DNA of 64,000 nt from Caulobacter sp. FWC26 (lineage in GTDB: Bacteria > Pseudomonadota > Alphaproteobacteria > Caulobacterales > Caulobacteraceae). Positions 22,503-35,265 of the stretch are shown here, in pieces (the stretch's first letter is position 1; each line of letters begins with the position of its first letter). The notes under the pieces are model-generated. The model had not been told where the DNA came from. It saw only the letters and a program-made list of their open reading frames with translations, and did not search any database. The position numbers were made by a program, and so were the translations under genes. The stretch lies in contig NZ_CP033875.1 of the NCBI RefSeq assembly GCF_002742645.2, positions 3,078,001 to 3,142,000 of the forward strand, in the 5' to 3' direction.

Positions 22503-24014
22503 TCAGGCGGGCGCACCGGCGACGCGGTCACGGACCAGGAAGGTCGCGGCGGCGGCCAGCGCGAAGGACACGGCGCCCAGGACGAGCGCGAAGATCGGTT
22601 GATTGCCAAAGAAGGTCTTGAGCAGCAGGCCCAGCAACGTCGCCGCGAGCAACTGCGGGATGACGATGAAGACGTTGAAGATGCCCATGTAGACGCCCAT
22701 CTTCCCGGCCGGTAGCGCCCCGGCGAGGATGGAGTACGGCGCTGACAGGATCGAGCTCCAGGCGAAGCCGACCCCGACCATGCCGATCAGCAGCCACTTG
22801 GGGTCGCGGATCACCAGGAACGACAGCAGACCCAGGGCGCCCAGGCACAGGCACACCGCATGGCTGACCCGACGGTTGGTGAGCCGAACCATCAGGGGGA
22901 TCACCAGGGCGGCGATCGCCGCTACCCCGTTGTAGACCGCGAACAATACGCCGACCCAATCGGCGCCCTCGTTGTAAGCCTTAGAGGAAGCGTCGACAGC
23001 GCCGAAGTGGACCGCCGCCACGGCGGGCGTGGTGTAGATCCACATGGCGAATAGCCCAAACCAGGAGAAGAACTGCACCATCGCCAGTTGGCGCATGGTC
23101 TTGGGCATCCGGAAAAAGTCGGCGAGGACTTCTGAGAAGCCGTTATCGGTGCGCCCGATCCGCTTGAAGCGCGCGCCCGCCACGCCTGCGCCGCCAAAGA
23201 CAAGCAGCAGCGCGGCTAGGACATAGAGCTCCTTCTCCAGCCCGACGCCCCAGACTACCAGCGCCAGGATCGCGCCCAGCAGAACGCCGCCGACACCCAG
23301 GGCGATATAGGCGTTGACCGAAGGCTCCGGCGCCTCGTGCGGTCCAAGGCCGGCGACCTCGCGCTCCGCCGTCTCGAACGCTTTGAGCTGCTCGGGGCTG
23401 TACTCGCGGGTAGTGAACACCGTCCACAGCACCGCCAGCAGGAGGCCCGCCCCGCCGGTGTAGAAGGCGATCCGCACCGAGTCCGGCACCTGGCCGGCGG
23501 GCGCGGTGTTGGCCACGTCGAACCAATTGGTCAGCATCCAGGGCAAGGCCGAGGCGAACACCGCGCCCAGCCCAATGAAGAAGCTCTGCATCGCATAGCC
23601 GGTGGCGCGCTGCTCGTCGGGCAGGTTGTCGCCGACAAAGGCGCGGAACGGCTCCATGGTGATGTTGATCGAGGCGTCCATGATCCACAGCGCCGCGGCC
23701 GCCACCCACAGCGTGGGCGAATTGGGCATGACCAGCAGCGCCAGGGTGGTCAGGATCGCGCCCCAGAAGAAGTAGGGTCGGCGACGCCCGAAACGCCCCC
23801 AGGTCTTGTCGCTGAAATGGCCGATGATCGGCTGGACCAGCAGGCCGGTCGCCGGCGCGGCGATCCACAGGATCGCCAAGTGGTTCACATCCACGCCGAG
23901 AGACTGGAAGATGCGGCTGGTGTTGGCGTTCTGCAGGCCGAAACCGATCTGGATTCCGAAGAAACCAAAGCACATGTTCCAGATCTGCAGGAAACTCAGC
24001 CTCTGCCTGGCCAT
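22503..24014 (-). CDS. malY: MFS (GPH/SLC45-like) sugar transporter of the maltose locus
   Basis: The 503-residue inner-membrane protein begins MARQRLSFLQIWNMCFGFFGIQIGFGLQNANTSRIFQSLG, a start typical of the sucrose/maltose MFS group. It has GHFSDKTWGRFGRRRPYFFWG (the loop 2-3 motif) and about 12 hydrophobic helices. In Caulobacter this gene position corresponds to MalY, which moves maltose across the inner membrane after uptake by MalA; the symbol relies on that recalled locus. A good GGAGG site precedes ATG 24014, and longer upstream frames are not credible. It diverges from the LacI regulator and is followed by the glucoamylase gene. Confidence 0.85.
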   Translation of the reverse strand: MARQRLSFLQIWNMCFGFFGIQIGFGLQNANTSRIFQSLGVDVNHLAILWIAAPATGLLVQPIIGHFSDKTWGRFGRRRPYFFWGAILTTLALLVMPNSPTLWVAAAALWIMDASINITMEPFRAFVGDNLPDEQRATGYAMQSFFIGLGAVFASALPWMLTNWFDVANTAPAGQVPDSVRIAFYTGGAGLLLAVLWTVFTTREYSPEQLKAFETAEREVAGLGPHEAPEPSVNAYIALGVGGVLLGAILALVVWGVGLEKELYVLAALLLVFGGAGVAGARFKRIGRTDNGFSEVLADFFRMPKTMRQLAMVQFFSWFGLFAMWIYTTPAVAAVHFGAVDASSKAYNEGADWVGVLFAVYNGVAAIAALVIPLMVRLTNRRVSHAVCLCLGALGLLSFLVIRDPKWLLIGMVGVGFAWSSILSAPYSILAGALPAGKMGVYMGIFNVFIVIPQLLAATLLGLLLKTFFGNQPIFALVLGAVSFALAAAATFLVRDRVAGAPA

Positions 24015-24337
24015 CGGTCCTCCGCCGCCCCGACCGCCGGTTAACCCGGCTGGTTCGCAAAATTTTTCATTGCGCTTTGCAGGCGACATTTGCGCACGCA
24101 CCGGCGCCGCGCGCAACGCCAAATGCATGACTGATTGAGCGATTCCGATCTTTGGAGCTTCTCTCGACGCATCACCCGGCCCACAGCGCCAGCGGAAGCC
24201 CGTGACCATTTGCAAGAGTTTTCAATGTCGATTTTCGACTTGGGGTCACTGCGGCCCGCTTGCAAACACCGTCGAAGCGCGTCTTATGGGGTCCTGAAAA
24301 TTTTTGCAGAAACCTTTGCATTAGGGGCGAGTTCGGA
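24015..24337. promoter_or_regulatory. divergent malY-malI control region with TTTGCA repeats
   Basis: This gap contains three similar bipartite motifs: 24076-24094 (TTTGCA...TTTGCG), 24209-24225 (TTTGCAAGAGTTTTCAA) and 24303-24320 (TTTGCAGAAACCTTTGCA). The same words recur upstream of malA. They are candidate operators for the LacI-type regulator encoded here, placing the repressor gene and transporter operon under one control. Binding is inferred, not shown. Confidence 0.55.
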
Positions 24338-25348
24338 GTGAGCAAGGGCGCGACGCGACTGGAAGACCTGGCCAAGCTGGCCGGCGTTTCGATCTCCACC
24401 GCTTCACGCGCGCTCAATGACAGCCCGGCGGTCAACAAGCGCACCAAGCAGCTGATCTGGAAGCTGGCGCGCGAGATGGATTACCCCTTCCGGCGATACA
24501 TGCCGGCCGGTCCGATCGGCGCGGAAGCGACCATCGCCCTCGTCACCCCCCGTCCGCAGGGGCGGGGCAGCAGCATGTCGGATCCGTTCTTCCTCGAACT
24601 CCTGGCCGGCGTCGGCGAGGCGGCGCGCGAGCGCGGCTGCGACGTGATCCTGTCCCACATCGCGCCCACCAACTTCGACGACCTCTCGGAGGCCATGACC
24701 ACCAGTCGGGCCGAAGGCGTGATCTTCCTGGGCCAAAGCTCGCTGCACGCCGCGTTCAATCGCCTGGCCGAGACCGAAAACCGCTTCGTCGTCTGGGGCG
24801 CGCAATTGCCGGACCAGAACTATTGCTCGGTGGGGTCCGACAATCTGATGGGCGGACGCCGCGCGACGCTTCACCTGCAGCGTCTGGGCCGCAAGCGCAT
24901 CGTCTTCCTGGGCGACACCGAGGCGCCCGAAGCCATGCAGCGTCATCGCGGCTATCTCGACGCCTTGGAGCACGCCAAGCTGGGCGTTGATCCCGACCTG
25001 ATCGTGCCGGCCCACTTCGAGGTCGAGTCGGCCGAGGCGGCGGTCGACAGCCTGATCCACAACGGCGTCACCTTCGACGGCGTGGTCGCGGCTTCGGACC
25101 TGATCGCCCTGGGCGCGATCCGCGCGCTGAAGCATGCCGGGCTCTCGGTTCCGGGCGACGTCTCGGTGATGGGCTTCGACAACGTGCCCTTCAGCCGCTA
25201 CGCCAGCCCGGCCCTGTCGACCATCGCCCAGGACACCGCCAAAGCGGGACGACTGATGGTCTCAAAGCTGCTCGACAGCGGCGAACGCGCCAGTCGCTCT
25301 GAGCGCGTGCCGACAGACTTGATCATCCGCGAGAGCTGCGGCGGCTAG
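24338..25348 (+). CDS. malI: LacI-family transcriptional regulator of the maltodextrin regulon
   Basis: The 336-residue protein starts with GTG at 24338 (VSKGATRLEDLAKLAGVSISTASRALN), giving a helix-turn-helix at about residues 7-28 with the hinge KLAREMDYPFRRYM following. The effector domain runs from TIALVTP, with GVIFLGQ, SVGSDNLMGGRRAT, RIVFLGD and VMGFDNVPFSRYASPALSTI, all normal for sugar-binding LacI repressors. It most likely represses the surrounding genes until maltose or a derivative binds. An ATG further upstream would add residues with no LacI counterpart. Its stop codon overlaps the convergent alpha-glucosidase stop within CTAG. Confidence 0.88.
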   Translation: MSKGATRLEDLAKLAGVSISTASRALNDSPAVNKRTKQLIWKLAREMDYPFRRYMPAGPIGAEATIALVTPRPQGRGSSMSDPFFLELLAGVGEAARERGCDVILSHIAPTNFDDLSEAMTTSRAEGVIFLGQSSLHAAFNRLAETENRFVVWGAQLPDQNYCSVGSDNLMGGRRATLHLQRLGRKRIVFLGDTEAPEAMQRHRGYLDALEHAKLGVDPDLIVPAHFEVESAEAAVDSLIHNGVTFDGVVAASDLIALGAIRALKHAGLSVPGDVSVMGFDNVPFSRYASPALSTIAQDTAKAGRLMVSKLLDSGERASRSERVPTDLIIRESCGG

Positions 25349-26925
25349 CCGCGTCGGGCGATCAGCCCCGCGCAAACCGGCATTTCGCCCTCGGCCTCCA
25401 GGTTGACGCCATCGACCAGCGTCCAGCCGTCCGGCAGCGACCAGGCGACCGGCTCAAAACCGAGGTTAAAGGCCAGAAGCAAGGCGTCCGCGCCTTCGCC
25501 GCGCTGCAAGATCAGCAGCGGTGTGTTGCTGTCGAGGAAGCGGATCGCGCCGGTGCGCAACGCCGGGTAGGCGCGACGCAGAGCGATTAGTCGGCGGGCG
25601 ACGTGCAGAGTGGACGCCGGGTCGACCTCCTGGGCGTCGACCGCCAGCGGCAAATGCTCGGGGTCTACCGGCAGCCAGGGCTCGACGCCTGAGAAGCCGG
25701 CGTTGAGCGCGCCGGCCACCCACGGCATCGGGGTGCGGGCCCCATCGCGCCCGAGGGTCTGAGGCCAGTTAGCGATAGCTTCAGGGTCCTGCAGCCGCTC
25801 GAACGGGACGTTTGCCTGCGGCAGGCCTAGCTCCTCGCCCTGATAGACGAAGACATTGCCGCGCAAGCCCATCAGCAGCAGCAGGCACATCTCGGCGAAG
25901 GCCTTGCGGTCGCGCCCCTCGGCCCAACGCGACACTGCGCGTGGGGCGTCGTGGTTCGAGAAGGTCCAGGACGGCCAGCCCTCGCCGTCCGCGCCCGGCC
26001 ATTGCGCCGCGCTTTCCATGACACGCTCGGCGTCCAGCTGATCAGCGTAGAGATAGTTGAAACCGTACGCGCTGTTCAGACGGTCGCTCCCCGCCGTGAA
26101 CTGCTTCATCTCGCGCTCGGCGTGGTCGCCACCAACCTCGGCTACGGAGAACCGCCCGCCCGCCGCGTCGGTCAGGGCCCTCAGGCGGCTGAGGAACTTC
26201 GGGATATCGGCGTGGCTCTGGTTGTGGATCTTGTCCTGGAAGTCGAACGGCCGCGTGCGCTTGCCGCCCGGCGGCAGGGGCGGATTATCGGTCAGCTTCG
26301 GATCGTGCATCGAAAAGTTGATGGCGTCGAAGCGGAAACCGTCCACGCCCCGATCGATCCAGAACTGGGTGACGGCCAACAGGGCTTCCTGCACCGCCGG
26401 ATTGTGCAGGTTCAGCTGCGGTTGGCTGCTGAGGAAGTTGTGCATGTAGTACTGGCCGCGGCGGGCGTCCCAGGTCCATGCGGGACCGCCAAACACCGAC
26501 TGCCAATTGCTGGGCGGGCTGCCGTCGGGCTTGGCGTCGGCCCAGACGAACCAGTCGGCCTTGGCGTTGGTCCGGTCCTGGCGGCTCTCTGCGAACCAGG
26601 GGTGCTCGTCCGAGGTGTGCGAGAACACAAGATCGATGATGATCTTCAGGTCGAGGTCATGGGCCCGCGCGATCAGGGCGTCGAAATCCGCCAGGGTCCC
26701 GAAGATCGGATCGACGTCACAATAGTCCGAGACGTCGTAGCCGAAGTCCTTCATCGGCGACTTGAAGAACGGCGACAGCCACACGCCCTCGACGCCCAGC
26801 GAGGCGATGTGGTCGAGGTACGCGGTGATCCCCGGCAGGTCGCCGACACCGTCGCCGTTCGCGTCGGCGAAGCTGCGCGGATAGACCTGATAGATCACCG
26901 CGCCGCGCCACCATTCGGCGTTCAT
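25345..26925 (-). CDS. alpha-glucosidase, GH13 (oligo-1,6/alpha-1,4-glucosidase type)
   Basis: The 526-residue enzyme has no signal peptide, so it acts in the cytoplasm. It starts EWWRGAVIYQVYPRSFADANGDG, the hallmark of GH13 subfamily 17/23/31-like enzymes. The catalytic nucleophile is Asp200 (DGFRFDAINF), the acid/base Glu263 (VAEVGG) and the transition-state Asp326 (SNHDAPR). It hydrolyses imported maltose and short dextrins to glucose. ATG 26925 follows GGAG; an in-frame GTG some 40 bases earlier is possible. The gene follows the exported amylase by 38 bases and is probably co-transcribed with it. Confidence 0.92.
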   Translation of the reverse strand: MNAEWWRGAVIYQVYPRSFADANGDGVGDLPGITAYLDHIASLGVEGVWLSPFFKSPMKDFGYDVSDYCDVDPIFGTLADFDALIARAHDLDLKIIIDLVFSHTSDEHPWFAESRQDRTNAKADWFVWADAKPDGSPPSNWQSVFGGPAWTWDARRGQYYMHNFLSSQPQLNLHNPAVQEALLAVTQFWIDRGVDGFRFDAINFSMHDPKLTDNPPLPPGGKRTRPFDFQDKIHNQSHADIPKFLSRLRALTDAAGGRFSVAEVGGDHAEREMKQFTAGSDRLNSAYGFNYLYADQLDAERVMESAAQWPGADGEGWPSWTFSNHDAPRAVSRWAEGRDRKAFAEMCLLLLMGLRGNVFVYQGEELGLPQANVPFERLQDPEAIANWPQTLGRDGARTPMPWVAGALNAGFSGVEPWLPVDPEHLPLAVDAQEVDPASTLHVARRLIALRRAYPALRTGAIRFLDSNTPLLILQRGEGADALLLAFNLGFEPVAWSLPDGWTLVDGVNLEAEGEMPVCAGLIARRG

Positions 26926-26963
26926 CGACGTCTCCACATCGGGGCGTTCTAAAACCTGCACTG

Positions 26964-28763
26964 TCACGATCGTCCCTCGGAAACGCAAATCATGTAGTCG
27001 AACGGCGCCAGTTCGACGCTGTAGCTGCCCGGCGCCGCCGCGCTTGAGACGCAGGCGCCCTGCAGGCTCTTCCAAGCCGCAGACCCCATCTCGACCGGCA
27101 CACGCGCCTTGATCGGCTTGTCGCTCGTATTGAAGACGGCCAGCACCTCGGTTCCCGCCATTCGCCGCGAGAAGGCCAACAGGCCGGGCTTGCCCTCGGC
27201 GACCCGCGTCACCTGCACCCCTTCGCGCAGGGCGGGCGTCGTCGCCCGCAGTTTCGCGAGCGCCGCGATGCGACGGTAGAGCACGCCATCGGCCTGGAAC
27301 GCCGGCCTGGCGCCCGTGGCCGCCGAGCCAACCAGGCGGTTGTCGTTGTAGCTGGCCACCTGGCTCGGGAACATGTCCTCACGGCTGTCGGCGTAGTCGC
27401 CATCGCCGGTGAAGCCCTGCTCGTCGCCATAGTAGATCGTCGGCACGCCGCGCGCCGTCAGCATGATGGCGTTGGCCAGGGTGACCCGCGCCAAAAGCTC
27501 GTCATCGCCGATGTTCGGGTGGGCCTTCAGCACGAAGTGACCGATGCGGCCCATGTCGTGATTGCCCAGGAAGGTCGGCAACTGGCGCGCCGTGGCCTCG
27601 CCGCCCTCATAGACAGCGTCGCCGGCGAAGACGCTGGCCAGTCGGTCGGGTCCCGTTCTGCCCGTGACGACATCTGTCACCGCCGCCTGGAAGGCGAAGT
27701 CCAGCACCGCCGGCAGCTTGTCGACCTTCACATGCCGCGCCAGCGTGGCGACGTCAGAATCGAAGACCTCGCCGAAGATGTGGAAGTTCGGGATACCTCG
27801 GGCCTTGGCGCGCGCCAGCATGGCCGGAACGAAGGCCTGCCAGAACTCCGGGTTCACATGGCGAGCGGTGTCGATGCGGTAGCCGTCGATCCCGAACTCA
27901 TCGATCCACCGGCCATAGACCTCGATGAAGCCCTCGACCACGCGCGGGTGCTCGGTGAACACGTCATCCAAGGTCGCGAAATCGCCCAGCAGCGAGCTCT
28001 CGCCGGCGAAGGTGCTGTCGCCGCGGTTGTGATAGTAGATGGGATCGTTCAGCCAGGCCGGCGCCTTCGCGCGCTCCTGGCCGGCAGGGACATAGGGGGT
28101 ATAGGCCCAGTCCGCGCGTTTGAGCTTGCCGAAATCCTTGCCGTCAAAGCCGTCATTGATCGGCGCACCGTCGACCCCGCCATGGCGGACGTAGGGATAG
28201 TCCGCGACGCCGCGATAAGCGCAACGGCCGTCCGGGCATTCCTTGTACTGGATGACGTCGGCCGTGTGGTTCACGACAATGTCCATATAAACCTTCATGC
28301 CGCGCGCATGGGCGGCGTCAACCAGGGCCTTGAAGTCGGCCTTGGTTCCCAGATGCGGATCAACGTCGGTGAAGTCGGTGATCCAGTAGCCGTGGTGCGC
28401 GGCGGACTCCTGGCCGGGCGGTCCTTGCACGGCCCGGTTCACGAAGATCGGCGCCAGCCAAAGGGCCGTCGCGCCCAGTCCCTGAGTGTAGTCGAGCCGG
28501 CGCGTCACGCCCTTGAGGTCGCCGCCGTGATAAAAGCCCGCTCGCGTGGGGTCGAAACCGTCGACCAGGGTCCCTCGCGCGGGGCCGCCGTGGTCATTGG
28601 TCGCGTCGCCATTCTCGAAACGATCGGGCAAGACGAAGTAGATCACCTCGTCTTGAGGCTTGCGTTGCAGATACGAAGCCGGAGCAGCCGCTGCGCTCTC
28701 ACCAAGCGCGCTCATGGCCGTCATGGCCAGCAGCATCCGCCGCCAGGGCGTCAAGGCCGACAT
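26964..28763 (-). CDS. exported alpha-amylase / cyclomaltodextrinase-type GH13 enzyme
   Basis: The 599-residue protein has a signal peptide ending near residue 27 (SALGESAAAAPA) and a GH13 barrel beginning DEVIYFVLPDRFENGD. Catalytic residues are Asp298 (GYRIDTARHV), Glu332 (IFGEVFD) and Asp403 (LGNHDMGR). The calcium-site style DIVVNHTAD is present, as is a small C-terminal beta domain (residues about 510-599). It should cut starch or long dextrins outside the cytoplasm, feeding MalA or the periplasmic glucoamylase. GGGAGGGGAG precedes the ATG. The upstream region is shared with divergent malA and holds candidate LacI-family operators. Confidence 0.9.
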   Translation of the reverse strand: MSALTPWRRMLLAMTAMSALGESAAAAPASYLQRKPQDEVIYFVLPDRFENGDATNDHGGPARGTLVDGFDPTRAGFYHGGDLKGVTRRLDYTQGLGATALWLAPIFVNRAVQGPPGQESAAHHGYWITDFTDVDPHLGTKADFKALVDAAHARGMKVYMDIVVNHTADVIQYKECPDGRCAYRGVADYPYVRHGGVDGAPINDGFDGKDFGKLKRADWAYTPYVPAGQERAKAPAWLNDPIYYHNRGDSTFAGESSLLGDFATLDDVFTEHPRVVEGFIEVYGRWIDEFGIDGYRIDTARHVNPEFWQAFVPAMLARAKARGIPNFHIFGEVFDSDVATLARHVKVDKLPAVLDFAFQAAVTDVVTGRTGPDRLASVFAGDAVYEGGEATARQLPTFLGNHDMGRIGHFVLKAHPNIGDDELLARVTLANAIMLTARGVPTIYYGDEQGFTGDGDYADSREDMFPSQVASYNDNRLVGSAATGARPAFQADGVLYRRIAALAKLRATTPALREGVQVTRVAEGKPGLLAFSRRMAGTEVLAVFNTSDKPIKARVPVEMGSAAWKSLQGACVSSAAAPGSYSVELAPFDYMICVSEGRS

Positions 28764-29069
28764 CGCTCCCCTCCCTCAATGCGCAGCGCGACTTGTGGCC
28801 GGCATTGCAATTCTTTGCAAGAATTTGCAGTCGCATTGGCAAGCTGTCAATCCGTCAACTTGAGGGCTTTTGCGACCCTTCCCGCCAAAACCGATCATCA
28901 AATGTGCAGCAAATCGGCCACATCATCCCCACTTCCGGGAGCCCAGGGGCTCCAGGCGATCTGCGTTTGCATTTTTTGGGTTGATTACGGACCGTTAATT
29001 TGCAGTATTTTGCGACAACGGCCCGCCGCACGACACAACAGCGCAGAGCCGGACAGGGAGGGAACTCGC
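28764..29069. promoter_or_regulatory. divergent amylase-malA control region with TTTGCA repeats
   Basis: A perfect 7-3-7 inverted repeat (AATTCTT-TGC-AAGAATT, 28809-28825) is embedded in TTTGCAAGAATTTGCAG (28814-28830). A second element TTTGCAGTATTTTGCG lies at 28999-29014, and a TTTGCA half-site lies near 28966. They match the words in the malY-malI gap and are candidate sites for the same repressor. The rest of the 306 bases shows no gene. Confidence 0.55.
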
Positions 29070-31805
29070 ATGAACACCCAATTTTCGCGCCGTCGCGCCT
29101 GGCTCATGGCCGGCGGGGCCACGGGCCTTGCCCTGGCTTTCGCCGTGGCCGGCTCGGCCCAAGCCCAGACCGCAAGCGCCGCTTCTGACGACACCAAGGT
29201 CGAGGAAGTCGTCGTCACCGGTATCCGTCGCGGCATTGAAGGCGCCATCTCGCTGAAGAAAAGCTCGACCGCGATCGTCGAGGCCGTCTCGGCCGAAGAC
29301 ATCGGCAAGCTGCCGGACGTGTCGATCGCCGAGTCGATCGCCCGCCTGCCCGGCCTGACCGCCCAGCGCCTCGACGGCCGCGGGCAAGTCATCTCGATCC
29401 GGGGCCTGGCGCCAGACTTCACCACCGCCCTCCTGAACGGCCGCGAGCAGGTCTCGACCGGCGACAACCGCGGCGTCGAGTTCGACCAGTATCCGTCTGA
29501 ACTGCTGAGCGCCGTCGTCGTCTACAAGACTCCCGACGCCGCCCTGATCGGCCAGGGCCTGGCCGGCACCGCCGACATGCAGACCGTCCGCCCGCTGGCC
29601 TATGGCAAGCGCGCCCTGGCCGTCGGCGCCCGCTATGAGTGGAACGACATCGGCGCCCTGAACGCCGGCACGTCGTCGAAGGGCAACCGCTTCAGCATCT
29701 CCTATATCGACCAGTTCGCCGACGGTAAGGTCGGTCTGGCCCTGGGCTACGCCCATATGGAGTCGCCCTATCAGGCCGAGCGCTGGAACGCCTGGGGCTA
29801 TCCGACCGCCGACTCGGCCGGCAACCTCGTGGTCGGCGGCGCCAAGCCGTACGTGATGTCCTCGAAGCTAAAGCGCGACGGCGTCATCGGTGTCCTTGAG
29901 TTCAAGCCGAACGAGCACTATTCGGGCGCCATCGACGTCTTCTATTCGAAGTTCGACAACCGCCAGATCCTGCGCGGCATCGAGCTGCCGCTGTACTGGT
30001 CGTCGGCCACGCTGCAGCCCGGCTATTCCTCGACGGACAAGCTGGTGACCAAGGGCACGTTCTCGGGCGTAAAGGGCGTGGTCCGCAACGACGGCAACAC
30101 GCGCGACAACACCGTCAAGGCCTTCGGCTGGAACAACAAGTTCTTCATCGACGACAACACCACCGTGACCGCCGACCTGTCGTGGTCGAAGGTCAAGCGC
30201 ACCGACCAGATCCTGGAAAGCTATTCGGGCACGGGCCGCAGCGGCGTCGGCGCCACCGACACCCTGGGCTTCACCATGGACAGCGACGGCGTCGCCCAGT
30301 TCAACTCGACCTTGAACTATGCGGACGCCAGCCTGATCAAGCTGACCAGCCCGCAGGGCTGGGGCACGGACGCGGCCACCCTGCCCGGCGGTCAGGACGG
30401 CTATCTGAACAAGCCGACCATCGAGGATGAGCTGAAGGCCATCCGCCTGTCGGCCAAGCGCATGCTGAACGGCCCGATCAAGGCCCTCGACTTCGGCGTG
30501 AACTACAGCGAGCGCAGCAAGCAGCTGATCAACGACGAGTGGTTCCTGCGCGTGAAGGGCAATCCGGCCAGCGTCGCCATTCCGAGCAACGCCCTGGTGG
30601 GCACGACCTCGCTGGCGTTCATGGGCATCAAGGGCATGGTCAGCTACGACCCGTTCGCCCTGATCGGCTCGGGCGTCTATGACCTGGTCCGCAACCCCAA
30701 CGCCGACGTGCTGGTCAAGAGCTGGAACGTCGAGGAAAAGGTCACGCTGGGCTATCTGAAGGCCGACATCGACACCGATCTCGGCGGCGTCAACATGACC
30801 GGGAATGTCGGCGTCCAGGTCGTCCACACCGACCAGAGCTCGGTCGCCCTCGGCGCCACGGGCTCGGGGACGGGCGTGAAGAGCGCCCAGCTGAGCGGCG
30901 GCAAGACCTACACCGACGTCCTGCCCAGCGCGAACCTGCAGTTCCACCTGGGCAACGAACAGGTGATCCGCGTCAGCGCCGCCCGCACCATGGCCCGTCC
31001 GCGGATGGACCAGATGCGCGCGTCCAAGACCTACAGCTATGATCCGGCCAAGGCCGGTTCGACCAATGTGAACTTCTCGCCCTGGGGCGGCAGCGGCGGC
31101 AATCCGGAGCTGGAGCCCTGGCGCGCCAACGCCTTCGACGTGTCGTACGAAAAGTACTTCGGTCGTCAGGCCTATGTCTCGCTGGCCGGCTTCTACAAGG
31201 ATCTGAAGACCTACGTTTACGACCAGAACCTCGTCTTCGACTTCAAGGGCTTCCCGGTCACCAGCGGTCCGGAACCGGCGCTGCGCCAAGGCATCGTCTC
31301 GACGCCGCAGAACGGCAAGGGCGGCTCGATCAAGGGCGTCGAGTTCACGCTCTCGATGCCGGGCGCCCTGCTCACGCCGGCCCTGGACGGCTTCGGCGCG
31401 GTCTTCTCGGCCTCGCACACCGACAGCAAGATCCGCCCGAACCCCAGCGATCCCTCGACCCCGATCCCGGGCCTGTCGAAGAACGTCGCCAACCTGACCG
31501 TCTACTACGAAAAGGACGGCTTCTCGGCGCGGATCAGCAACCGCTACCGTTCGAAGTTCCTCGGCGAAGTCTCCGGCTTCGGCAACGGCCGCAACTATCG
31601 CATGGTCAAGGGCGAGAGCGTCGTCGACGCCCAGGTCGGCTACACCTTCAACGACGGCCCGATGGAAGGCCTGTCGCTGCTGGCCCAGGTCAACAACCTG
31701 ACCGACGAGCCGTTCACCACCTATCAGAACGGCGACACCCGCCAGGTGATCGACTACCAGCGCTACGGCCGCACCTTCCTGCTGGGCGCCAGCTACAAGT
31801 TCTAA
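29070..31805 (+). CDS. malA: TonB-dependent outer-membrane receptor for maltodextrins
   Basis: The 911-residue receptor has a signal peptide ending AGSAQAQT, a VEEVVVTGIRRGIEGAI TonB-box/plug start, a plug domain (about 60-190; LPDVSIAESIARLPGLTAQR, ISIRGLAPDF) and a 22-strand-type barrel. It finishes GRTFLLGASYKF with the terminal aromatic required for outer-membrane insertion. It imports maltose and larger dextrins using TonB/ExbBD energy. The assignment to MalA rests on the linked regulator, transporter and three glucan hydrolases. GGGAGGG lies seven bases before the ATG at 29070, and a strong terminator follows the stop. Confidence 0.92.
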   Translation: MNTQFSRRRAWLMAGGATGLALAFAVAGSAQAQTASAASDDTKVEEVVVTGIRRGIEGAISLKKSSTAIVEAVSAEDIGKLPDVSIAESIARLPGLTAQRLDGRGQVISIRGLAPDFTTALLNGREQVSTGDNRGVEFDQYPSELLSAVVVYKTPDAALIGQGLAGTADMQTVRPLAYGKRALAVGARYEWNDIGALNAGTSSKGNRFSISYIDQFADGKVGLALGYAHMESPYQAERWNAWGYPTADSAGNLVVGGAKPYVMSSKLKRDGVIGVLEFKPNEHYSGAIDVFYSKFDNRQILRGIELPLYWSSATLQPGYSSTDKLVTKGTFSGVKGVVRNDGNTRDNTVKAFGWNNKFFIDDNTTVTADLSWSKVKRTDQILESYSGTGRSGVGATDTLGFTMDSDGVAQFNSTLNYADASLIKLTSPQGWGTDAATLPGGQDGYLNKPTIEDELKAIRLSAKRMLNGPIKALDFGVNYSERSKQLINDEWFLRVKGNPASVAIPSNALVGTTSLAFMGIKGMVSYDPFALIGSGVYDLVRNPNADVLVKSWNVEEKVTLGYLKADIDTDLGGVNMTGNVGVQVVHTDQSSVALGATGSGTGVKSAQLSGGKTYTDVLPSANLQFHLGNEQVIRVSAARTMARPRMDQMRASKTYSYDPAKAGSTNVNFSPWGGSGGNPELEPWRANAFDVSYEKYFGRQAYVSLAGFYKDLKTYVYDQNLVFDFKGFPVTSGPEPALRQGIVSTPQNGKGGSIKGVEFTLSMPGALLTPALDGFGAVFSASHTDSKIRPNPSDPSTPIPGLSKNVANLTVYYEKDGFSARISNRYRSKFLGEVSGFGNGRNYRMVKGESVVDAQVGYTFNDGPMEGLSLLAQVNNLTDEPFTTYQNGDTRQVIDYQRYGRTFLLGASYKF

Positions 31806-31878: not shown

Positions 31879-32190
31879 TCAGGGACGCTCCAGGCGCTCG
31901 CGAGCCCGCCGGCGCACGGCGCGGAAGACGATCGGCAGCAGCTCCCAGCTGAACGCGCCGACGACGAAGCCGAACAGATAGGCCTCGTGTAGCGGCGCCC
32001 AGGGAATGACCGGCAGGCCCACCCGCACCAGAAACCCGGCCAGGATCATCGCCGACGCCGCCGCGCAGGCCAGCCGCACCAGAAGGCCACGCTCGACCAC
32101 GCCCAGCGCGCCGATCTGCACGCAGCCATAGACGGCGACACCGCCCAGAGCGCCCACGATCGCGCGCAGGCGATCGGGATCGATGTCCAT
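31879..32190 (-). CDS. small membrane protein, hypothetical
   Basis: A 103-residue protein with about three hydrophobic segments: IVGALGGVAVYGCVQIGALGV (11-31), LVRLACAAASAMILAGFLV (37-55) and YLFGFVVGAFSWELLPIVF (71-89). These are followed by a highly basic C-terminus (RAVRRRARERLE) that should face the cytoplasm. GGAGG lies six bases before the ATG. Size and topology recall small holin-like or phage-associated membrane proteins, but no specific match is claimed. It converges with malA, and the lower-GC segment begins beyond its start. Confidence 0.72.
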   Translation of the reverse strand: MDIDPDRLRAIVGALGGVAVYGCVQIGALGVVERGLLVRLACAAASAMILAGFLVRVGLPVIPWAPLHEAYLFGFVVGAFSWELLPIVFRAVRRRARERLERP

Positions 32191-32602
32191 CGAGGCCTCC
32201 TCTAGCCCGGGATCTTGGGGTGACGGCTCAAGGGTGTCCCGCTCCGCGCGTCGCGGCCGCGACAGCGCTCCGGAACAACCCCGCCGTTAAGAAATGTGCC
32301 CGGTCAGCGGGGGAGAGTCGACGGGGTGTGAGGGAGGGGGCGTCCGGTTCTGACGTCGGGTCGGGGGTGTTTGGACTGGGGCGAGCGGGCGCTGATGGCT
32401 AGGTGTGAGCGCCGGGTTACTGTAGCAGCGCAGCTAGAAGCCGAGAATTAGACGCACTGTCACCGCAATTCCACCGTAATTCAGGAGGGCGTCAATCTGG
32501 TGTGGAGGGCGCGCGAAAAGGCCCGCCGGTAAGGGCGGACCCTTCTAATGTGGAAGCTGCGAAGCTAGAGTCCATGCCCCGCCATTTAAGCGGAGCCTTG
32601 GG
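32191..32602. other. non-coding boundary region of the tRNA-Ile-adjacent segment
   Basis: About 410 bases without a believable gene. GC-rich sequence near 32200-32400 gives way to more AT-rich sequence around 32400-32500 (CCGCAATTCCACCGTAATTC). Only a minus-strand terminator (32516-32541) was recognised. This is where the left junction of an inserted element would be expected; no copy of the tRNA-Ile end was found by eye. Confidence 0.4.
32516..32541 (-). terminator. Rho-independent terminator of the Ntn-hydrolase operon
   Basis: On the minus strand GGTCCGCC-CTTACC-GGCGGGCC forms an 8-bp stem (one T-G pair) followed by TTTT. It lies 61 bases after the small gene's stop and supports that gene and the large gene before it forming one transcript. 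Confidence 0.8.
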
Positions 32603-32785
32603 TTACGCACGCCGGCAAGCTCGCTCCATTTCGCGCTCTCCAGCACTCGCAACCTCACCGACCAGATTGCGATATCGTTGCACCGCCTCGGGCGCAGGCT
32701 GAGATATCGGCCGGGGAGCTGGAGTTTCGGTTTGTCGCTCTTGTACCGCCCGGGCGATAAACTCGCGAATGCTCGCCTTGGTCAC
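32603..32785 (-). CDS. small hypothetical protein downstream of the proteasome-like gene
   Basis: A 60-residue frame with a GTG start at 32785, preceded by CGGAGA at a good spacing and beginning 13 bases after the stop of the large gene. The product starts VTKASIREFIARAVQERQTE, has a proline-rich middle (PAPRPISQPAPEAVQ) and ends in a charged helix (GEREMERACRRA). The frame is open upstream to a TTG at 32854, but that would overlap the previous gene. The terminator after it supports a real transcript. The family is unknown; a partner or regulatory role is only suggested by position. Confidence 0.55.
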   Translation of the reverse strand: MTKASIREFIARAVQERQTETPAPRPISQPAPEAVQRYRNLVGEVASAGEREMERACRRA

Positions 32786-32798
32786 AACGTTCTCCGAT

Positions 32799-34088
32799 TT
32801 ATCGGTGAAGGGCAGCTTGTCGATGCATAAAGCGCGGATTGAGGCTCGGATCAAACCAATGCTTACGCCTTATCCAAACTAAGCCTTCATTCTTCGTTAA
32901 GACGGCCACATCCGTCGGACCGCCGACAGACTCAGACGGCTTCGTCACCTTTTCCTTCAACGACTGTAGGTTAATTAAAGTTTCGGCTAAGTCTGCCATC
33001 TCGTCCAGTGGTAGTGCGCTCAGCACTCTGCGCATTGGGTACGCGTGGGTCGTTCTCGCTTGCTCGAACCAACCATCAAGAATTGTCTTTTTCGTGGCCT
33101 CGACTAGGGCAACATTGTTTTGGGGCGGCAGCCCAGCGCTCGCCACTATGGTGTTGGCCAAATTGGCCAACTCCAAGCTGAGCAGTTCGCTCATGGTTGA
33201 GTAGCTATCTAGGCTGAAGCCAAGCTGGAAGGTATCGCTCATCGAAGTTTGAGCGAAGGCATTTATCTGCGCGCCGTTGTCGTGGGTGACCGCTGCGGCA
33301 CTTTCGCGCTCCCGGAGCAGGTGATCTGCAAATAGGCCTTGAACTTGGTACTGCACCATCGAAGGGAAAATTTCGTGATCGCCATAACCAGCAATCACCA
33401 AACCCGTGGTGCTGAAGTGCCGCGCTGGCTCCTTGAACATTAGGTCCAGCGCAACCTGAACAAATGCATCTATTTCCGCGATACCTTCCCAGTCGAGGAT
33501 CTTGAGCGCACCTTCAATTTCTGACCTTAGATCGGCCGAATAGATCGCGGTCGCTCGATCAATGACCTCCTGCGTAAGCAGCGCAACAAAAGGCAACGAC
33601 GCCAGACGAGTTCTTTCGGCAAGAATCGCAGCGTCAAGTCCGTCCAAGATCTGCTGCTTCGCAGAGCCTGCCGCGTGCTGTACTTCGAACAGTATTCCGA
33701 GTGCGGCACTTTTCGCCGCAGCCAGAAAGACATCGCGCTGGATTACGTCAGGAAAAAGCCGCTTATCGCGTTCGATGTAACCGAAAAACTCTGTCGCGTA
33801 TTCCTCAACCGTGTTGAAGCTTTTGCTTCCCAAAGCAGATCGGAATTCCTTTACCGCTAGCTCCCAGGGGACGCGAAGTACATCCGCTGTATCGAAAAAC
33901 ATCAGCGCTACAGGGTTATTATTCGACAATTGAAAGATCTTGTTCGCGCCTTTGAAATAGCGCTCTTCCCGCTTTCCATCGATCCATCCTGACGCCGTGA
34001 TGGCGCTGTCAGCAGCCAGCACAAGCCCGTGGCGATTCATCACGCAAACTTCAGAGGTCAAGATTCGGCTCCCTGCACGCGTCAGCAT
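32799..34088 (-). CDS. proteasome-fold (Ntn-hydrolase-like) protein of unknown function
   Basis: The 429-residue protein has an N-terminus that lines up with proteasome beta subunits. Thr11 could be the processed Thr1, after LTRAGSRIL. RHGLVLAADSAIT puts Gly and Asp at proteasome positions 11 and 17. NKIFQL puts a lysine at the Lys33 position after an insertion of about seven residues. Later segments include EYATEFFGYIERDKRLFP and TTGLVIAGYGDHEIFPSMVQYQVQG, then a helical C-terminal part (about 300-410) with no proteasome counterpart. It is twice the size of HslV. It might be a self-processing hydrolase. The gene is visibly AT-richer than its neighbours (one 60-base row is 40% GC) and abuts tRNA-Ile. 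Confidence 0.75.
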   Translation of the reverse strand: MLTRAGSRILTSEVCVMNRHGLVLAADSAITASGWIDGKREERYFKGANKIFQLSNNNPVALMFFDTADVLRVPWELAVKEFRSALGSKSFNTVEEYATEFFGYIERDKRLFPDVIQRDVFLAAAKSAALGILFEVQHAAGSAKQQILDGLDAAILAERTRLASLPFVALLTQEVIDRATAIYSADLRSEIEGALKILDWEGIAEIDAFVQVALDLMFKEPARHFSTTGLVIAGYGDHEIFPSMVQYQVQGLFADHLLRERESAAAVTHDNGAQINAFAQTSMSDTFQLGFSLDSYSTMSELLSLELANLANTIVASAGLPPQNNVALVEATKKTILDGWFEQARTTHAYPMRRVLSALPLDEMADLAETLINLQSLKEKVTKPSESVGGPTDVAVLTKNEGLVWIRRKHWFDPSLNPRFMHRQAALHR

Positions 34089-34294
34089 GGTGCAGCCTCA
34101 TCGCTTCATCTTGCAAGAGAGTGATCAATGGACTTGATAGGCTGTACCACGTCGCGCCCTTTAATCTGACCTCCAGGCTGCGGTAGAATTGGAATTTCGG
34201 TGACAGTGCACTCTATTGGCGCTGCGCTCGGTGCGCACGTTCGGTGTGAAACCTGGAGCCGTAGCGCCCTCCCACACCACACATAGAAAGGTTT

Positions 34295-34370
34295 TGGTAG
34301 GCCTGGAGGGACTCGAACCCCCAACCAGACCGTTATGAGCGGTCGGCTCTAACCATTGAGCTACAGGCCC
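34295..34370 (-). tRNA. tRNA-Ile (anticodon CAT, lysidine type)
   Basis: A complete cloverleaf on the minus strand: acceptor GGGCCTG / CAGGCCT (first pair G-U), D-arm GTAGCTCAATGGTTAGAGC, anticodon stem-loop GACCGCTCATAACGGTC with anticodon CAT, T-arm GGTTCGAGTCC, discriminator A and encoded CCA. The CTCATAA loop and GGTTAGAGC D-arm are those of tRNA-Ile2, whose C34 is modified to lysidine by TilS so that it reads AUA; initiator and elongator tRNA-Met look different. Its 3' end faces the lower-GC segment. Confidence 0.93.
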
Positions 34371-34518
34371 GCGCGGAGTCGCGCCGAAGCGCACGCGAGC
34401 CGGCGGATTAGCATGAGCCGAACGCGGCTTAAAGCTCCGGTTCAGGTTGAGGCTGTCACGAAGGAACCCTAGCCGTGCGGCGACGCTATCTGCGCCGGAC
34501 TGCCTTGGAGAAAGATAG

Positions 34519-35265
34519 ATGACTCACACTGCTCGCCGCCTGCCCGCCATCGCCCTGCCCGCCCTGCTGGGTGGCGCGTTGCTGCTGGGCGCCGCCGCGC
34601 CGGCGCTGGCCCAAAGTAACGACGCGGCCTTCAAGGCCACGACCTTCACCCTGTCGGCCTATGGCGAGACTCAGGTGGCGCCGGACATGGCCACGATCAC
34701 GCTGGGCGTCCAGACCGACGCGGCCACGGCGGCCGAGGCGCTGAAGGCCAACGGCGCGCGGATGAACCAGGTGATGGCCGCCCTGAAGAAGGCCGGGATC
34801 GCCGCGCGTGACATCCAGACCTCGAACCTGAGCCTGAACGCCCAGTACGCCTATGAGCAGAACCAGCCGCCCAAGCTGACCGGCTACCAGGCGTCGAACC
34901 AGGTGACGATCACGGTGCGCGACCTCGCCAAGCTGGGCGCGGCGGTGGACGCCACGGTCAGCGCCGGCGCCAATACGGTCAACGGGATCAGCTTTGGCCT
35001 CGCCAATCCCCAGGCCGCCGAGGACGCCGCACGGCTCGCCGCCGTGAAGGCCTTGCAGGCTAAGGCCGAGTTGTATGGCCGCGCCACCGGCTACAAGGCC
35101 GTGCGGCTGGTCAATCTGAGCGAAGGCGGCGGCTATACGCCCGCCCCGCCCCCGATGCCGGTGTTCGCCATGGCCAAGCGCGAGATGGCCGACGCCACCA
35201 GCATTTCGGCCGGCGAGCTGAAGGTCCGCGTCGACGTCAGCGCGGTCTACGAAGTCAGCCAGTAA
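34519..35265 (+). CDS. exported SIMPL-domain (DUF541) protein
   Basis: The 248-residue protein has a signal peptide (LGGALLLGAAAPALAQS) and one SIMPL domain: FTLSAYGETQVAPDMATITLGVQTDA (residues 36-61), KKAGIAARDIQTSNLSLNAQYAYEQ, LTGYQASNQVTITVRDLAKLG and, near the C-terminus, AVRLVNLSEGG and a final VDVSAVYEVSQ strand. Such proteins are periplasmic or outer-membrane associated; members have been linked to oxidative stress (YggE) but the biochemical role is undefined. An AGAAAG site precedes the ATG. It is monocistronic; a terminator for the opposite gene follows. Confidence 0.88.
   Translation: MTHTARRLPAIALPALLGGALLLGAAAPALAQSNDAAFKATTFTLSAYGETQVAPDMATITLGVQTDAATAAEALKANGARMNQVMAALKKAGIAARDIQTSNLSLNAQYAYEQNQPPKLTGYQASNQVTITVRDLAKLGAAVDATVSAGANTVNGISFGLANPQAAEDAARLAAVKALQAKAELYGRATGYKAVRLVNLSEGGGYTPAPPPMPVFAMAKREMADATSISAGELKVRVDVSAVYEVSQ

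Follow-up and report, generated by a model that had tools for sequence, protein, structure and literature searches.

A 64,000-nucleotide stretch of the Caulobacter sp. FWC26 genome (contig NZ_CP033875.1, positions 3,078,001 to 3,142,000; hereafter the window) carries, on its minus strand at 32799..34061, a gene for a 420-residue protein that, judging from conserved residues and a predicted structure, almost certainly belongs to the proteasome superfamily of N-terminal nucleophile (Ntn) hydrolases with a catalytic threonine (Thr1). In close relatives this gene and a small downstream gene form a two-gene unit, a finding held with high confidence. The best overall explanation, which tips slightly towards probable, is a Thr1 hydrolase that works with a small regulator or adaptor, is carried as mobile cargo and has a role in conflict. 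The conserved neighbour and the recurrent cargo setting give a handle, namely one protein–protein interaction and a biological setting (phages, satellites and islands), on a family probably described in a 2021 survey, which reports no function-suggestive genomic context (Fuchs, Alva and Lupas 2021; PMC8665760).

The original prediction placed an open reading frame (ORF) at 32799-34088 and gave no strand. The frame exists and lies on the minus strand; the plus-strand frame over the same interval contains many stops. Translation from ATG 34088 would yield 429 residues, and from TTG 34061 the 420 adopted here. The shorter product is probably the correct one, because the first residues of relatives, M-T-S-E-V, line up with TTG 34061 (P0001, 91% identical, starts there) and AGGGAG, a likely ribosome-binding site (34069..34074, minus strand), stands seven bases upstream. 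Residues are numbered from this start. The protein matches phrog_5990, a family of unknown function in PHROGs, over its full length (E 4.6e-76; residues 1-415 of 420 on profile positions 1-427), and five further family members also match it.

Conservation identifies a putative catalytic triad. The equivalents of proteasomal Thr1, Asp17 and Lys33 are T2 (codon 34056..34058), D18 (34008..34010) and K41 (33939..33941), all on the minus strand, and each is retained in 107/107 sequences of an alignment (A2) that includes the window protein and was picked from homologues, genomes, phages and plasmids; its other invariant columns are M54, G220, G225 and A270. The lysine follows an insertion, as had been proposed, lying seven residues beyond position 33 counted from the threonine. 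The glycine noted earlier at position 11 is present in the window protein but is not a feature of the family, in which the consensus is alanine. Threonine directly follows a start-type codon (68 ATG, 8 GTG, 7 TTG and 1 ATT) in 84/84 locus-derived members with a profile match from position 1, a set that includes the window protein and three same-contig duplicates and leaves out later-starting matches and second pieces of split genes. None of these 84 shows a sign of a propeptide, and removal of the initiator methionine would therefore be enough to expose Thr1, which the Asp17 and Lys33 equivalents, given their invariance, would then activate. Self-processing before Thr11 (numbered in the 429-residue frame), as originally suggested, is accordingly unsupported.

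The proteasome-type four-layer beta fold that had been expected is found in the predicted structure, which was computed from a 99-sequence input and replaced a run with 30 close sequences (mean predicted local distance difference test score 70.5, with a poor N-terminal part). Its strong structural Z score comes from a VIA-align superposition on a beta subunit. The alignment pairs model residues 2-401 with residues 1-192 of the beta subunit, and the original view of a second half without counterpart in the proteasome was therefore mistaken; the claim of a large protein with a proteasome-type triad is borne out by the 420-residue length, the triad and the predicted fold. H1 and H2 are present in the model (residues 66-77 and 85-98) and the S3/S4 turn is short. 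Two helical insertions are predicted, one after H1/H2 (residues about 105-215; 33417..33749, minus strand) and one between H3 and H4 (roughly residues 309-351; 33009..33137, minus strand, with approximate borders), the latter at the site used in PMI-2 to PMI-6 (PMC8665760). Both would occupy positions where beta subunits line the pore and make ring–ring contacts, which makes an HslV-type double ring of the standard kind less likely and would leave space for a dedicated regulator.

Among the 22 new proteasome homologues described by Fuchs, Alva and Lupas, PMI-4 ('proteasome homolog with multiple insertions') and PMI-3 combine insertions after H1/H2 and between H3/H4; Firmicutes, Bacteroidetes and phages are listed for PMI-4 and not for PMI-3, and Proteobacteria are also listed for PMI-4 (PMC8665760, Table 1). 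Because the present family has insertions at both sites and occurs in Firmicutes, Bacteroidetes and phages, the enzyme is most likely PMI-4, as judged from the published description (in which HDY66466.1 is the representative and clusters are drawn at P 1e-10). The family was thus rightly called uncharacterised with respect to function, but it is already known as phrog_5990 and, by description, as PMI-4. It resembles PMI-4 in its beta-like core, triad, paired insertions and lack of a propeptide, and differs in apparently having no conserved glycine at the putative place of Gly47, which is stated to be common to all proteasome homologues (PMC8665760), and in having a partner gene and mobile settings where the survey reports no informative context; the phrog_5990 entry gives no function, partner or fold. 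HslV shares Thr1, Asp17 and Lys33 but is compact (~175 residues) and has the ATPase HslU as its partner; a separate hslV-like gene lies elsewhere in the genome (C3:4485932). The 20S proteasome beta subunit shares the predicted fold and triad, whereas the enzyme has two large insertions, no propeptide and no adjoining alpha-subunit or ATPase gene seen. Anbu, with about 230 residues in solved chains and a C-terminal coiled coil (PMC8665760) that serves its split-ring assembly, is about half as long, the difference arising through the insertions. A single-sequence search of the PDB returned GajA as its sole match (E 1.1), judged to be chance.

The small gene that follows the enzyme gene in the window (32603..32785, minus strand) encodes 60 residues from a GTG start 13 nucleotides after the enzyme stop, with GGAG upstream. 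Under a fixed rule that called for an ORF of 45-85 codons with a start preceded by a ribosome-binding site at -20 to +40 nucleotides from the enzyme stop, a partner was present in 28/28 relatives that reach 36% identity across more than 200 residues, whereas among other genes coding for 150 residues or more 26/356 have such an ORF (7.3%; 21/279 when the 27 core loci other than the window are counted). These counts leave out same-contig duplicates (L066, L072, L074) and second pieces. This association suggests that the small gene encodes a regulator or adaptor of the enzyme, a role given about an even chance from the sequences. An alignment of 22 partners did not show common ancestry of the small proteins across all groups.

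In f4 and f5, two families from the same order as the window, 19/19 loci (L005-L007 and L009-L024; L031 duplicates L019) have a downstream ORF whose C-terminal end is a basic stretch followed by FGIF, FGLF, LGIF or LGLF. In six re-fetched f5 loci the tail-bearing ORF starts 2-16 nucleotides past the enzyme stop or overlaps it. Other groups yielded two looser matches (L085, L088), and the L079 partner has a related KKKRRGFFGLFRRK end. Tails such as KKRFGIF and RKKFLGIF recur in the 19 loci although the protein bodies differ. C-terminal peptides of HslU activate HslV (PMC6429459), and because of this parallel the partner may, tentatively, dock on the enzyme through its C-terminus; the fixed basic-aromatic tail of this one lineage would then act in an HslU-like manner with no ATPase. 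If so, this would be ATPase-free control of a proteasome-type active site.

The family recurs in mobile settings. Of 7,998 candidates scored in a protein search, 500 were relatives at E<=1e-3, and of 7,996 scored in a profile search, 597 were; none of the 120 relatives listed for either search has a precomputed Pfam domain. Whereas a single-sequence scan of genome contigs found zero relatives, an alignment-based scan found 23 loci. Seven other genomes of the genus match within the 150 related genomes searched, every match being distant; a close profile matched in 16/385 genomes of a class sample, and phrog_5990 in 10/398 genomes of a phylum sample (own included) and 0/14 control genomes. Relatives are encoded by 13 phage records (seven Streptococcus satellite phages, two further Streptococcus phages, one each of Providencia and Porphyromonas, and two of Stenotrophomonas), by 10 plasmids and by 13 IMG/VR loci, three of which are the same contigs as genome loci. 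In eight phage and plasmid records that were read, the gene lies at a satellite end, next to or following lysis genes, amid head genes, or is plasmid-borne, and a small partner ORF is present in 5/7 testable cases. Chromosomal relatives neighbour integrases (L038, L042), portal (L036), tape measure (L044), TrbL (L047) or helix-turn-helix and M78 genes (L032), and elsewhere metabolic genes, such as those for GMP and chorismate synthase. The enzyme gene is thus carried as cargo on phages, phage satellites, plasmids and islands. Relatives at L050, L052 and L083 are split into two overlapping reading frames, through either family decay or contig errors.

Such cargo would help its carrier or host whenever conflict arises with other mobile elements; this is the weakest step of the proposal and is thought possible, at somewhat under an even chance. 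Among the openly licensed papers listed as matches in a literature search, none ties the family to phage defence or names phrog_5990, and a word search finds no mention of proteasome, Ntn or protease in PMC13092281 and PMC9122126. The boldest form of the reading, considered rather unlikely, is a mobile two-component 'mini-proteasome' in which a Thr1 enzyme with built-in helical caps would be switched on or aimed by a short C-terminus-docking partner instead of an ATPase, and which phages, satellites and small cassettes would carry as a weapon against competing mobile elements.

Several observations weigh against the preferred reading of a Thr1 hydrolase with a small regulator and a conflict role. 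With regard to the fold, sequence profiles barely see the proteasome: Pfam, NCBIfam and PADLOC models gave zero matches to the window protein, the HslV profile–profile probability is 0.5% and the best PDB profile reaches E 0.013. Foldseek superpositions are poor (query template-modelling score at most 0.26 and root-mean-square deviation 16-21 Å among the 50 listed). The region of the oxyanion Gly47 (residues 53-56) has no conserved glycine in A2, while Met54 is invariant and the register there depends on a gap, for which reason a replacement of Gly47 by Met54 was dropped as too sure. If the GG motif sets the register, the counterparts of the functional residues Asp166 and Ser169 are not conserved. 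With regard to the partner, the 36% identity line was set after the data were seen and close relatives are not independent. Beyond that line a partner ORF was found in 2/14 relatives at 33-35% identity, in 13 of the 42 distant or fragmentary members that could be tested (in one further member, of 43 in all, the sequence stopped at the gene; 8/43 are fragments with higher identity, and 5 of these 8 have the ORF) and in 2/5 of a later distant set. The partners are very divergent, with one column (Tyr) at >=90% among 22 aligned. The tail pattern was defined after examples had been seen, is absent from the f4 locus L008, belongs in two re-fetched f4 loci to an ORF that the gene caller did not pick, and could equally be a membrane anchor. 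Finally, the defence matches beside 18 relatives are scattered singles: their 108 flank proteins, all run through PADLOC (20 were also scanned singly), matched 33 models, the strongest being PDC-M71A (E 1.4e-77), and each of the 25 listed models occurred in a single protein. A defence role, raised at the outset as a possibility, is still a candidate; enrichment in defence islands was not supported by these scattered matches, which were obtained without a control set.

The rival that survives best, itself unlikely, is a toxin–antitoxin or abortive-infection pair, in which the Thr1 hydrolase would be harmful when released and the small protein would hold it inactive until another phage infects. 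It fits a two-gene unit whose relatives occupy temperate phages, satellites and plasmids, the patchy distribution in the phylum sample, and one Rhizobium plasmid, where an integrase and a multiubiquitin/ThiF/DUF6527 gene set are found no more than 5 kb away. The enzyme-first, small-gene-second order, however, is the less usual one for antitoxins. PADLOC has no model for the enzyme and its flank matches are the scattered ones just described, and three f5 loci have flanking gene clusters in common, as expected for a vertically kept chromosomal gene.

Less probable still is a protein ligase resembling connectase, a proteasome-like Thr1 enzyme whose fold is put to use in ligating rather than degrading (PMC8665760). 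Thr1 would here form an amide with part of the partner and transfer it to a target in one-step tagging, and the short divergent gene behind the enzyme gene could encode the tag. Connectase, however, lacks H1/H2 and has a two-helix S3/S4 insertion, the reverse of the present model, and the 22 partners have no invariant motif. A stand-alone hydrolase followed by unrelated small ORFs, the form in which the protein was originally conceived, has a similarly small chance. The many distant members with no partner under the strict rule (29/42 testable; 3/5 in the later set) agree with it, but the small gene in 28/28 close relatives against the 7.3% control, the fixed tail in 19/19 loci and the lack of any sign of a propeptide in 84/84 members argue against it. 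A phage morphogenesis or lysis factor, as opposed to cargo with a host or conflict role, is very improbable: in phages of Providencia, Streptococcus and Stenotrophomonas the gene adjoins those for lysis, and 5 loci have a lysozyme-like gene, which in two cases carries a lysozyme annotation, but the enzyme gene also occurs in a satellite with no annotated capsid or tail genes and on plasmids, its position varies between phages, and in the window it belongs to a two-gene insertion.

In the window the gene pair probably lies on a small piece of foreign DNA at the 3' side of a tRNA-Met (CAT) gene (34295..34370, minus strand). It is flanked by a 20-nucleotide inverted repeat (left arm 32454..32473, right arm 34190..34209, both given on the plus strand; 19/20 complementary), which has exactly two copies in the 4.87 Mb genome at <=3 mismatches and an equivalent in 0/400 first-order resamples of the region. 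The G+C content of the enzyme gene is 52.9% against 65.7% for the window, lower than in all 314 segments of the gene's length. For site comparison, 12 of the 61 searched genomes of the genus were fetched, with which flank homology resumes at 34272-34295. About 100 nucleotides separate the matched flanks in G001 and about 110 in G051; G008 has both ends in common with the window and about 1.3 kb of different DNA with a 219-codon open frame between them; G041 has 13.9 kb of extra DNA, in which a DUF6538/phage (tyrosine) integrase gene (L181:1453-3120, plus strand) adjoins tRNA-Met. The remaining genomes are intermediate, apart from G033 and G048, in which only 55 nucleotides of the left flank are found, about 16 kb away. 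The placement of the gene in accessory DNA, as originally proposed, is borne out. No transposase or integrase gene was recognised inside 32454-34209, no duplication of the tRNA 3' end of at least 13 nucleotides was found as an attachment repeat, and no target-site duplication beside the inverted repeat was seen by eye.

The DNA at the tRNA-Met site varies within the genus, and the insertion at 32454-34209, together with the G008 ends enclosing different cargo, may represent a cassette-like element with exchangeable content. A phosphatidylserine decarboxylase-like gene adjoins the site in two sister genomes (L183:15735-16874, assigned by PF02666, and L188:15070-16209, by a similar start sequence only). 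A promoter and terminator scan gave zero promoter-like sites and one terminator-like site, neither count exceeding shuffles, and Rfam found no family in 32000-35000 except the tRNA. The ten flanking ORFs of the window scanned with Pfam are ordinary or unassigned and include zero AAA ATPases, in line with the earlier remark that no ATPase gene adjoins. Further away, 22503-31805 looks like a maltodextrin-use cluster, with a major facilitator superfamily transporter, a LacI-type regulator and two alpha-amylase-family enzymes identified by Pfam, and a TonB-dependent receptor read from sequence only.
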